A DNA stretch of 33,386 nt from an uncultured Nitrospirota bacterium (GTDB lineage Bacteria > CG2-30-53-67). A program made the translations under genes and the position numbers. Where the stretch lies: positions 1-33,386 of the forward strand of contig CAMYMF010000038.1 in assembly GCA_947259355.1 (NCBI GenBank). The letters are read 5' to 3'. Under the pieces are notes generated by a model. It saw only the letters and a list, made by a program, of their open reading frames with translations, had not been told where the DNA came from and ran no database searches. This document shows, one piece after another, positions 7,566 to 26,187 of the stretch (the first letter of the stretch is position 1; every line of letters begins with the position of its first letter).

Positions 7566-9986
7566 CTAAGGCACCCCCAGCGTCTGCGCCGCGCGCTGCT
7601 TGAAGAGCAGATGAAAAAGAGTCTGTGAATAGAGCTTCATCTTCCGCTTTTCCTTGTTGGTCACAGCGTATCGCCAGAAGCCGTACAGCTTGGTCAGCTT
7701 CATCAGTTGCTCGTTATAATGCTGCCAAGTATACTTTTCGCGCACCCGGGCTATGGCATTCTGTGAGATGAAGTTCCAGGTGAGCGGCCCGTCGCCGGCA
7801 GTTTCGAGAAACGCCACCAGTTGGTCCCGAATGCGATCGTAGCGCGTCGGATTGATGAGAAAACCGTTGACGCCGTGCTGGATGATCTCGGAGGGGCCGC
7901 CGAACTGGGTGGCAAACACCGGCAGCCCGCACGACATGGCTTCCAAGACGGTCAACCCGAAGGCTTCAAAGAGCGCCGGCTGGACAAAGACGCCTTTCAT
8001 ATCCGCCATGATCCGATAGATCTCACCCGTGTCAGCCTTGGGGAGGTGCTTGCCGATCCAACGGATCTGCCCGTCAAGACGGTATTCCTCGATGAGGTGA
8101 TGGATCCGTTCGATCTGTTCTTTTTCCTCGGGATCCGCACTCTGCGAGACGTTTACCTTGCCCGCCACCACGATAAGGTTGCAGCGGCTCCGGATTTCCG
8201 GGCATTTCCCGAAACACTCCACGAGCCCCGCGACATTCTTGACCTTGTCCAGACGGGCCATGGTGAAAATGGGGATCCGCTTTGCATCCTCCAGGGTGCC
8301 GAAGATTTCTTCATCCCGGGCTTCGAAGAGCAGCCCCGTCAACCGCTGCACCCGTTCCCGGTCTCGCCGGGCCTGGTCGGTGTGCGGAAAATAGACGCTT
8401 GCATCCACGCCGGGCGAGATGACATTGAACTTGGGATGAAAGAGGTTCACGCCGCCCAGCACCTGATAGAAACCGGGCAGGCTGTAATAGAGATAAGACT
8501 CGTACTGACCCCGCACATGGGCTGTTCCGGCGATTTCCTGAAAGGTACTCGCAATAATGAAATCTGCCATGTTCATGGCGAGCAGATCCGCCGTGAATTG
8601 CAGCGAAAAGTGGTACGCAGCCTCCATGTCTTGCCAGTACAGATCGGAGAAGAGGTACTTCGATTTCTCCAGTGCATGGGCTATGTTGCACTGGATGACG
8701 CCCGTTTCCTCCGAAAGAATGGACGCCACCAAGTTGCCGTCGGAGTAGTTGCCGATGATGAGATCGGGGTTGCGTCCTAACTCCCGCGTCAGTTCTTCTT
8801 TCGCCTCATACGCGAAGCTCTCCAGGTAGGGCCAGACCCAGAAGCGGGAGATCCAGTAGTCCACCACATTCTTGTCGCCATCCCGGAAGGGCACCCGCAG
8901 AATCCAACAGTTCCGGGTGTCCTTGATTTTCTCCAGACGGACGTGAGACAGGGTGCCCTCGCTTCTCGGAATGAGCCGTGTCACTACCACGATCTTGGGC
9001 TCCACATCCAATCCCGCCAGACGCAGGCTCTCCTGCAGGTAGCTTTCCATACTTTTGACCTGATCCAGGATATAGACGACCTGACCACCCGTGTCGGGTT
9101 TGCCCAAAACGTTTTCCTGTCCGAAGAAGCCGTGGGGTGAAATCACGGCCACCTTGGAGACCATGGGAATGCGCGAGATGAAGGCCTCCAGCGAGCGGCT
9201 GTCGGGGGCTTCAAAAAGATTGAGCAGCAACTGCTGGGTCTCGAGGACGCGCGGCACACTGTCGCCCCACCCCGGCTCGAAACCGAGTGCACGCAGCCCG
9301 CTCTCCACGCGGGTCGCCTCCCAGGAATCGTCCGTCTCACTGAGCCACTCCGCCGCCCGATCGAGCTGTTCGATGAGTTTGGTATCGTCGCCGATTTTCG
9401 CGCCGTTGATCAGCAGCTGCTTGCCCCCGAGGGAGTGGATCTTGAGGAACTCAAAGAGGTCCTTGTGCCACTTTTCAGGATTTTGAAAGATACTGCTCGA
9501 CAGGTGCCGATTCAGAAACTCAATCCCCTTGCCCACGTTCTTGGGATCCCGCATGTGCGGGGCATAATCGTAAAAGGGGGTGAAATCGATTTTCAGCGGA
9601 ACCCCCTCGGCCCCGTTCGTCCGGAGCACGAAGTAATCTCTCAGATCCAGGAGTTCGCTGACCGAAATCTCCTGTGGTTTTCCCAGTCGGGCACGGGTGA
9701 AGGGAACCTTGTAAAACCGGTCCCTGGTAATCTGGTGTCGATGGATGATCACCACAAAGCGCTCAAACACAATTATCTCCTGGACCTTGTTGAGGAAGGC
9801 CTTCCAGGAAAACGGACCGGTGTCATCCCCGTGTGCCTGTCCCGTCCCCGGCCCTTCTCCCAGCGCCAGAAGGATGTCATTGCGCAGCAGGTATTTCTTT
9901 TGGCCGCGGATCAGCTCGAGCAGAAAGCCCTGAAAGACCTTGACGTCTTCGGATCGCATCAGATCGGTCCACTTGACGAGGCTCAT
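7566..9986 (-). CDS. Sucrose synthase
   Basis: This 806-residue GT4-family enzyme reversibly converts sucrose plus NDP to NDP-glucose plus fructose in the cytoplasm. Length and architecture match plant and bacterial sucrose synthases: an N-terminal regulatory region (about 1-270), a GT-B fold opening with SPHGFFG and KPDTGGQVVYILDQ, and the C-terminal nucleotide-sugar half with the E-x7-E motif EAFGLTVLE (Glu674 and Glu682) followed by GGPSEII. The ATG at 9986 overlaps the stop of the preceding gene as ATGA, and GGAGGAGAG lies just upstream. As last gene of the sucrose operon it would work in the cleavage direction to supply ADP- or UDP-glucose, or run in reverse. The nucleotide preference cannot be read from sequence by eye. 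Confidence 0.95.
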   Translation of the reverse strand: MSLVKWTDLMRSEDVKVFQGFLLELIRGQKKYLLRNDILLALGEGPGTGQAHGDDTGPFSWKAFLNKVQEIIVFERFVVIIHRHQITRDRFYKVPFTRARLGKPQEISVSELLDLRDYFVLRTNGAEGVPLKIDFTPFYDYAPHMRDPKNVGKGIEFLNRHLSSSIFQNPEKWHKDLFEFLKIHSLGGKQLLINGAKIGDDTKLIEQLDRAAEWLSETDDSWEATRVESGLRALGFEPGWGDSVPRVLETQQLLLNLFEAPDSRSLEAFISRIPMVSKVAVISPHGFFGQENVLGKPDTGGQVVYILDQVKSMESYLQESLRLAGLDVEPKIVVVTRLIPRSEGTLSHVRLEKIKDTRNCWILRVPFRDGDKNVVDYWISRFWVWPYLESFAYEAKEELTRELGRNPDLIIGNYSDGNLVASILSEETGVIQCNIAHALEKSKYLFSDLYWQDMEAAYHFSLQFTADLLAMNMADFIIASTFQEIAGTAHVRGQYESYLYYSLPGFYQVLGGVNLFHPKFNVISPGVDASVYFPHTDQARRDRERVQRLTGLLFEARDEEIFGTLEDAKRIPIFTMARLDKVKNVAGLVECFGKCPEIRSRCNLIVVAGKVNVSQSADPEEKEQIERIHHLIEEYRLDGQIRWIGKHLPKADTGEIYRIMADMKGVFVQPALFEAFGLTVLEAMSCGLPVFATQFGGPSEIIQHGVNGFLINPTRYDRIRDQLVAFLETAGDGPLTWNFISQNAIARVREKYTWQHYNEQLMKLTKLYGFWRYAVTNKEKRKMKLYSQTLFHLLFKQRAAQTLGVP

Positions 9987-24186: not shown

Positions 24187-25179
24187 TCACCATCGAAGCA
24201 GCGCGGACGCCCAGGTCAGCCCGCCGCCGAACGATTCGAACAGCACATGATCGCCCGGGCGTATCCGGTCGGTCCGCACGGCTTCATCCAGTGCGATCGG
24301 TATGGACGCGGCCGAGGTGTTTCCGTAGCGCTCCAGATTGACCACCACCTTTTCCATGGGCAACGCCAGCCGTTTGGCCGTCGCTGTGATGATGCGGATG
24401 TTGGCCTGGTGGGGGATCAGCAGGTCCACGTCGTCGGCCTGCAATCCATTCGCTGCAAGGGCTTCCAGAACAGCCTCCTCCAGAGTCTTGACGGCCACGC
24501 GGAACAGCTCGTTGCCCCGCATGATCAGATAATCCGCTTCGGTGCGTATCAATTCCTGGGTGATAGGATTCCTGGAGCCGTTGCGGGCCACCATGAGCAT
24601 ATCGGCGTACGTACCGTCGGCATGCAGGTGGGTCGACAGTATGCCCCGCACCCCTTCTTCCCCGCGCAAAACGGCCGCCCCCGCCCCGTCTCCGAACAGG
24701 ACGCAGGTGTTGCGATCCGACCAATCCAGAACCTGGGAAAATTTTTCGGCCCCGATGATCAGCGCCGTCCCGACCGAGCGATTGCGCAGAAACTGATCGG
24801 CCACACCCATGGCATACAGGAATCCCGAACAGGCGGCGGAGAGATCGAAGGCCGGTTTCCCCACAATGCCCAGCCGATGGGCCACGATGCAGGCCGACGA
24901 GGGAAAGCTCATGTCGGGGGTGGCCGTCGCCAGTACGATGAGGTCGATCTCCGACGGGGCGATGCCGGCCTGGGCAACCGCCTGTTTTGCAGCCTCGGTG
25001 CCCATGTCGGAGGTACTTTCATCGTCGGCGGCGATGCGGCGCTCCCGAATGCCCGTTCGGGTCCGGATCCACTCATCCGACGTGTCCACCCGTTCGGCGA
25101 GGTCCGCGTTGGTCATCACGTGGGCAGGCAGATAGCTGCCCGTGCCGATAATCCGGCTTCTGATCCTTCCTTCAATCAT
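24187..25179 (-). CDS. fabH: Beta-ketoacyl-ACP synthase III
   Basis: FabH starts fatty acid synthesis by condensing acetyl-CoA (or another short acyl-CoA) with malonyl-ACP. The 330-residue protein begins MIEGRIRSRIIGTGSYLP at 25179, with GAGGCGAAGGA upstream and an ATGA overlap with the plsX stop; a longer frame reaching into plsX is rejected. The catalytic triad is intact: Cys117 in AACSGF, His257 in PHQAN and Asn287 in GNTSAAS. The chain-length or branched-primer preference cannot be judged by eye. Because it is coupled to the end of plsX, the break in plsX upstream should reduce its translation if real, although fabH has its own ribosome-binding site. Confidence 0.97.
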   Translation of the reverse strand: MIEGRIRSRIIGTGSYLPAHVMTNADLAERVDTSDEWIRTRTGIRERRIAADDESTSDMGTEAAKQAVAQAGIAPSEIDLIVLATATPDMSFPSSACIVAHRLGIVGKPAFDLSAACSGFLYAMGVADQFLRNRSVGTALIIGAEKFSQVLDWSDRNTCVLFGDGAGAAVLRGEEGVRGILSTHLHADGTYADMLMVARNGSRNPITQELIRTEADYLIMRGNELFRVAVKTLEEAVLEALAANGLQADDVDLLIPHQANIRIITATAKRLALPMEKVVVNLERYGNTSAASIPIALDEAVRTDRIRPGDHVLFESFGGGLTWASALLRW

Positions 25180-26187
25180 TCCTTCGCCTCGACGGGCGCC
25201 GTGTTCGCGCCGCCCGATCTTTCTCCGCTGTTCAACGCCGAGTCGGCCACCCGCCCAGTCTCCCCCATGACCGCTGCGTATTCCGTCATCCCGGCGGCAA
25301 TCTTGGCCGGAATCTCGTGGGCCACACATTCCGCGGCAATTCGGATCCCATTCATCAGGGCCTTGCCCGACGAGCCGCCATGGCTGATAATCACGTTGCC
25401 GTTCACACCGAGCAGGGGCGCCCCACCCACTTCCGAGTAATCAAAGCGCTTCTTGAAGCGCTGAAAGGCCGGCGCCAGAAACCAGTATCCCAGCTTGCGC
25501 CATCCGAGGGAGGCAATCTCGGCGCGCAGCACCCGGCTCATGACTGAGGCGACGCCTTCACTGATTTTCAGTGCAATGTTTCCCACAAAGCCATCGCAGA
25601 CAACCACGTCCACCGTACCGTTGTACACATCCCGACCCTCCACATTGCCGACGAAGTTGATGGGCAGTGCCTTGAGAGCACGGTGGACCTCCTTGGTCAG
25701 CTCGTTGCCCAGGATGACGTTCTCGGCCACGGTGAACACCGGGATCAGCTGGAAGTGCTGGTGCACCATGCCGATGCCGGCCACGAATGTTCGGCAGGAC
25801 GGTGGCGATGGCCGGACGGTCCACACCGGGAATGGTTCGCAGCACAAACTGGGCCGTGGCCATGACGGCACCGGTGTTGCCCGCGCTGAGACAGGCTTGG
25901 GCGGACCCTGCTTTGACCAGGTTCACCGCCACACGAATGGATGAGTCTTTTTTCTTCCGGAGAGCCTCCACAGGGGATTCGTCCATACGAACCACCTCGG
26001 AGGCGTGGTGGATGGTGATGCCCAGACCGGAGATATCGTGCCGCTTCAGGGCCTCTCCGACCTTGGCCTCATCACCCACCAAAATGATCTCATGGCCAAA
26101 CTTTCCAGCCGCAAGGACACTCCCTTCGACCACCCGGTCCGGCGCGTAGTCCCCGCCCATGGCATCGACGGCAATTTTCAATGTCAC
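25176..26187 (-). pseudogene. plsX: Phosphate acyltransferase PlsX, interrupted by foreign sequence and frameshifted
   Basis: PlsX makes acyl-phosphate from acyl-ACP, the donor for PlsY in phospholipid synthesis. The N-terminal part is normal for about 137 residues (IAVDAMGGDYAPD, VRMDESPVEALRKKKDSS, CLSAGNTGAVMA, RPAIATVLPNIRG). The C-terminal part is normal from GNELTKEVHRALK onward (NFVGNVEGRD, VVVCDGFVGNIALK, GVNGNVIISHG), but in a different frame. Between them about 55 family residues, including the segment that in other PlsX proteins reads like LLDxGANVDC, are missing; about 84 nt of unrelated sequence stand in their place. Translation from the start would run off frame and stop at 25558. 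The start is GTG 26187, or more likely TTG 26181, which has GAGG 5 nt upstream. It could be a true pseudogene or an assembly chimera. Confidence 0.9.
25704..25787 (-). other. ABC-importer ATPase fragment inside plsX
   Basis: Read leftward in the frame of the plsX 3' part, this piece encodes FVAGIGMVHQHF, then QLIPVFTVAENVILGNE. That is the Q-loop region of sugar/nucleoside (BmpA/YufO-type) ABC importer ATPases, not any part of PlsX. Every one of its 28 or so codons ends in G or C, stricter than the codon use of the flanking plsX sequence, which suggests a donor of higher GC content. At the downstream junction the PlsX and ABC sequences share a GNE(x)TK-like coding stretch, so short homology probably guided the join. 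Confidence 0.85.

Follow-up and report, generated by a model that had tools for sequence, protein, structure and literature searches.

Is the plsX gene of this uncultured Nitrospirota draft a real gene, rebuilt around a piece of foreign DNA, or a join made outside the cell? Within the window (the whole 33,386-nt stretch of DNA analysed), plsX lies on the minus strand from 26187 to about 25177, and its PlsX profile is covered in two pieces that occupy different frames.

The plsX locus and the extent of the replacement

The gene order is rpmF–plsX–fabH, the orthologous position to that in a same-genus genome (G001), which has an intact plsX and was our reference for alignment and dN/dS. Profile searching of the whole draft places PF02504 at this single site, as two minus-strand pieces in two frames: 25777–26181 (profile positions 1–136, E 6e-41) and 25308–25715 (positions 186–322, E 2e-40). 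The preliminary description had raised the prospect of a second intact plsX, a plsB or the donor ABC gene elsewhere in the genome; the PF02504 search of the draft found no second plsX, and neither a TIGR03703 PlsB nor a BMP-type ATPase was found there.

The N-terminal part of plsX (25781..26187, minus strand; PF02504 1–136, TIGR00182 1–131) comprises approximately 135 codons from a GTG start, and its frame continues out of register across the foreign patch to 25558, where a stop closes it at 209 codons. The C-terminal part (25176..25710, minus strand; PF02504 186–322, TIGR00182 186–329) runs from GNELTKEVHR to the stop and shares its frame with the patch, not with the N-terminal part; patch included, this frame reads VAGIGMVHQHFQLIPVFTVAENVILGNELTKEVHR. 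TIGR00182 positions 132–185 are absent from the locus, and the two halves score 150.6 and 135.2 bits, each below the 243.4-bit cut-off for membership in a single frame. Both flanks are clear PlsX phosphate acyltransferase (PF02504, TIGR00182), between rpmF and fabH as expected, but 51 codons have been swapped out and the frame is broken, such that no full PlsX is encoded.

DNA alignment to the congener shows 83–87% identity on both sides of plsX, ending at 25781 and restarting at 25710. The interval spans 70 nt (25711–25780) in the window and 153 nt (51 codons) in G001, a difference of −83 nt that puts the two sides out of frame. The break, together with the two-frame profile match, bears out the view that plsX is a chimera with its middle replaced. 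A loss of some 55 residues, including a GANVDC-type segment, had been put forward: the GANVD segment, readable in the G001 DNA, is indeed among the missing codons, but the count is 51. Elsewhere in the 6.3 kb aligned to G001 the two genomes are colinear, the remaining gaps carrying no further signs of gene breakage.

Values of dN/dS against G001 are 0.083 for the N-terminal half of plsX, 0.059 for the C-terminal half and 0.122 for fabH. Purifying selection on both plsX halves is strong, and the low values flanking the patch indicate that plsX has not decayed, ruling out an old pseudogenization. Synonymous differences from the congener are 0.44 in the C-terminal half (25179–25710) and 0.21 in the N-terminal half (25786–26187); this approximately twofold difference could hint that the flanks come from different strains, local variation being the ordinary alternative.

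Identity of the patch and its two seams

The 70-nt patch (25711..25780, minus strand) cannot be aligned to the congener plsX. Its frame reads VAGIGMVHQHFQLIPVFTVAENVIL, continuing in frame to the PlsX sequence GNELTKEVHR, and contains GIGMVHQHFQLIPVFTVAENVIL, the Q-loop region of a BMP-type ABC-importer ATPase. The best nucleotide match in a single genome (phylum of G251) is 92% over 88 nt (E 7e-31), within a gene for a 516-residue ATPase, L267. Across the patch core, L267 is identical at 68 of 71 nt, and two further genes of the same order (that of G882), L279 and L281, at 66 of 71 nt each. The Q-loop pattern GIGMVHQHF-x-LIP-x-FTV-x-ENV-x-LG is present, and the residues over GIGMVHQHFQLIPVFTVAENVILG are identical in L267. 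Judged by sequence, then, the patch is a piece of a BMP-type (nucleoside/sugar) ABC-importer ATPase, as first proposed, with a similarity far beyond chance. No Pfam family was returned for the 32-residue patch stretch. Searching this reading against 386 diverse genomes gave matches in ABC-ATPase-type frames, mostly of at least approximately 500 residues, with the window itself as the exception; a family of PlsX proteins carrying the same segment, which the preliminary description had held to be incompatible with a chimera, was not seen.

These data settle a lesser reading, in which the patch would be true PlsX sequence so divergent that it resembles an ABC ATPase. This reading has the shared GNELTK word in its favour and nothing more; it is refuted by the 92% nucleotide identity to an ABC ATPase gene and by the loss of alignment to the congener plsX, and we give it practically no credence. 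A complete duplicated ATPase (Walker A/B, signature, approximately 500 residues) does not describe the locus, where 70 nt have PlsX on either side. The patch matches the first ATPase half of the BMP-type importers in its Q-loop region, but at only about 24 codons it lacks the Walker A, signature and Walker B motifs of those proteins, and the neighbourhood showed no transporter genes. Donor-type genes in the phylum of G083 (91% over 80 nt) adjoin BMP lipoprotein and permease genes (L159, L166).

G or C occupies the third position in all 23 patch codons checked, as had been noticed from the sequence, versus about 72–77% in neighbouring genes; donor-type loci have a G+C content of approximately 0.59–0.71, in line with the high-GC donor suggested earlier. 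On sequence similarity, the closest relative found of the patch comes from a high-GC genome whose phylum is not that of the window. A donor inside the same genome is unsupported: no BMP-type ATPase was found there, the best other match being 46% over 26 residues. The class of G208 fell short as a donor group (at most 63 of 72 nt), and the phylum of G083 is surpassed as closest donor by the phylum of G251 and the order of G882. Exact scanning of the genome contig collection with a 62-mer of the patch gave no match, nor did a relaxed pattern with several third codon positions left free (including GGCAACGAG); an exact 47-mer was likewise without a match in viral contigs. The plasmid matches listed lie at 73–84% identity, in rhizobial, other proteobacterial and haloarchaeal ABC genes. 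With a cross-phylum donor type up to 68/71 nt identical, the patch entered either very recently or never.

The right seam, GGGCAACGAGCTGACCAAGG (25691..25710, minus strand), is identical to the congener plsX, and 14 nt of it, GGCAACGAGCTGAC, are common to plsX and a real ABC gene of the donor order (L280, reading LGNELTNG), confirming the shared GNE-x-TK stretch that had been suspected here. In ABC genes of that order the stretch reads LGNELTTG or, with the exact GGCAACGAGCTGAC, LGNELTNG, and a same-phylum gene reads GNEATKGG. Plausibly, a donor with LGNELTKG would have approximately 20 nt in common with plsX at this point. The left seam, CGTGGC (25780..25785, minus strand), has at most about 5–6 nt that may be common to plsX and donor: plsX ends in CATTCGTGG, where the congener has CGCGG, and the donor-type gene L117 can read GTGGCCGG. 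A 15-mer spanning the left seam occurs in none of the fetched donor-type genes. The locus thus combines foreign sequence that was found nowhere else in the genome with a clear shared word at the right seam and very little at the left.

The need for plsX and alternative routes

Where a species has only one route, each enzyme is essential (PMC11633183, PMC1950310). The window's genome has plsY; TIGR03703 PlsB went undetected in it as in the others of the eight class members searched, which speaks against PlsB as a backup. Strong purifying selection on both plsX halves, with plsY present and PlsB undetected, makes a long-inactive plsX unlikely. The preliminary description had called PlsX essential, which fits this genome, with some doubt arising from an acyltransferase–hydrolase fusion.

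This fusion is an 841-residue frame on contig 63 of the draft (L163, 1267–3789) with a weak PF01553 match and an α/β-hydrolase region; a fusion of the same type is present on contig 63 of the same-family genome G004 (L164, 2932–5184). PF01553 also occurs in long frames in G001, G003, G005, G006 and G007, that is, in most relatives searched. The fusion is not TIGR03703 PlsB; it is possibly an alternative glycerol-3-phosphate acyltransferase, and with such long acyltransferase frames in most class members a backup for plsX is conceivable.

Of the 41 genomes first searched, most have a near-full-length PlsX match. PlsX was undetected in four well-completed genomes, G002 and G004 of the same family and G006 and G007 of the same class. 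In G002 and G004 fabH is undetected too and plsY is present; in G006 and G007 fabH is present and plsY undetected. These absences may be real losses or may reflect missing contigs, the latter being an equally good account of the undetected fabH in G002 and G004.

An assembly or library chimera weighed against a recent event

Of the two origins offered at the outset, illegitimate recombination and an assembly chimera, the second is clearly favoured: we consider it probable that the plsX patch is a local chimera from assembly or library, rather than a real gene. Such a chimera would have formed while the library of a metagenome was prepared, or as the metagenome was assembled or its gaps were closed. 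Where plsX reads were exhausted or the path was ambiguous, BMP-type ABC ATPase sequence would have been inserted from a high-GC member of another phylum occurring alongside; the downstream half of plsX would have been joined at the word common to both genes (GGGCAACGAGCTGACCAAGG or most of it), and the upstream half attached by a low-homology join. We infer that software or the library, not the cell, produced the join; in the organism itself plsX is very probably intact.

Several lines of evidence converge on an assembly or library origin. The window's genome is a fragmented, incomplete draft (94 contigs, 3.1 Mb, 89.7% complete, 2.8% contamination), its fragmentation pointing to a metagenome bin. 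The donor type belongs to another phylum and is near-unchanged, with no further trace of it found in the genome; one seam lies at a shared word; both plsX halves are strongly constrained; plsY is present and TIGR03703 PlsB undetected; the draft has only one, broken plsX, whereas that of the congener is intact; and the rest of the 6.3 kb is colinear with the congener. Local assembly errors that corrupt genes have been described in uncurated metagenome bins, and put wrong protein-coding genes into public databases (Chen et al. 2020, PMC7111523). The present case resembles these errors and chimeras in being a short non-native stretch within a protein gene of an uncurated draft, but the defining sign in that work is missing read support, whereas here the judgement comes from the assembled sequence, with a left join that has little shared sequence.

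Three observations count against an assembly origin. An ordinary k-mer join would need more than the roughly 5–6 nt possibly shared at the left seam; exact and relaxed scans of the genome contig collection did not turn up the exact donor; and over the approximately 110 kb set against the congener no other foreign patch was seen, so patches of this kind are not widespread in the assembly, one odd in-frame deletion aside. This deletion lies in a methyltransferase-like gene on contig 12 of the draft (L178, approximately 9141–9165), where 57 in-frame codons are absent relative to the congener (L217, 4857–5012), with a short CTCGAG repeat at both breakpoints; it could be a further slip of the assembly or a loss that really occurred.

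The alternative that survives best, although we regard it as unlikely, is a very recent real event in which microhomology-mediated (illegitimate) recombination exchanged 153 nt of plsX for foreign ABC DNA and so inactivated the gene in the sampled strain or in part of its population. The shared word at the right seam and the few nucleotides at the left fit microhomology-mediated joining, the short left seam being equally typical of this process and of a software join. The well-completed relatives without detectable PlsX suggest that plsX may be dispensable in the lineage, and the long acyltransferase frames in most class members (fused to a hydrolase in the window's genome and in G004) might act on glycerol-3-phosphate. 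Against such an event stand the almost unchanged cross-phylum donor type (68/71), the absence of decay in the remaining plsX, the retention of plsY and the failure to find the donor gene elsewhere in the genome; to our knowledge, a core gene very rarely acquires such a 70-nt patch from another phylum. Its fuller form, a natural strain in which plsX has just been knocked out by a 70-nt interphylum microhomology-joined patch and the loss is tolerated via another route to lysophosphatidic acid (for example, the acyltransferase–hydrolase fusion), strikes us as highly improbable.

There is next to no chance that the locus is a working variant, in which a restart inside or before the patch would yield a truncated ABC/PlsX hybrid that retains some function. 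Patch and C-terminal half do share a frame, which a mechanical ORF list gives as 231 residues with a GTG start, but that start comes only from the listing; the hybrid would lack the N-terminal half and the 51 central codons (which in the congener include the GANVD segment), each half on its own stays below the TIGR00182 cut-off, and such an architecture was not seen in relatives, either among the 41 genomes first searched or among the 386 diverse genomes.

If the assembly or library chimera is the true origin, the draft presents as broken a core gene that the organism probably has intact, and a translated database would take in a false ABC/PlsX hybrid; the finding is then an error to be flagged in databases and not new biology. 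A real patch would offer an unusual sighting of DNA crossing between phyla by microhomology into a gene otherwise held under constraint, and one would then have to ask how phospholipid synthesis begins in this lineage.
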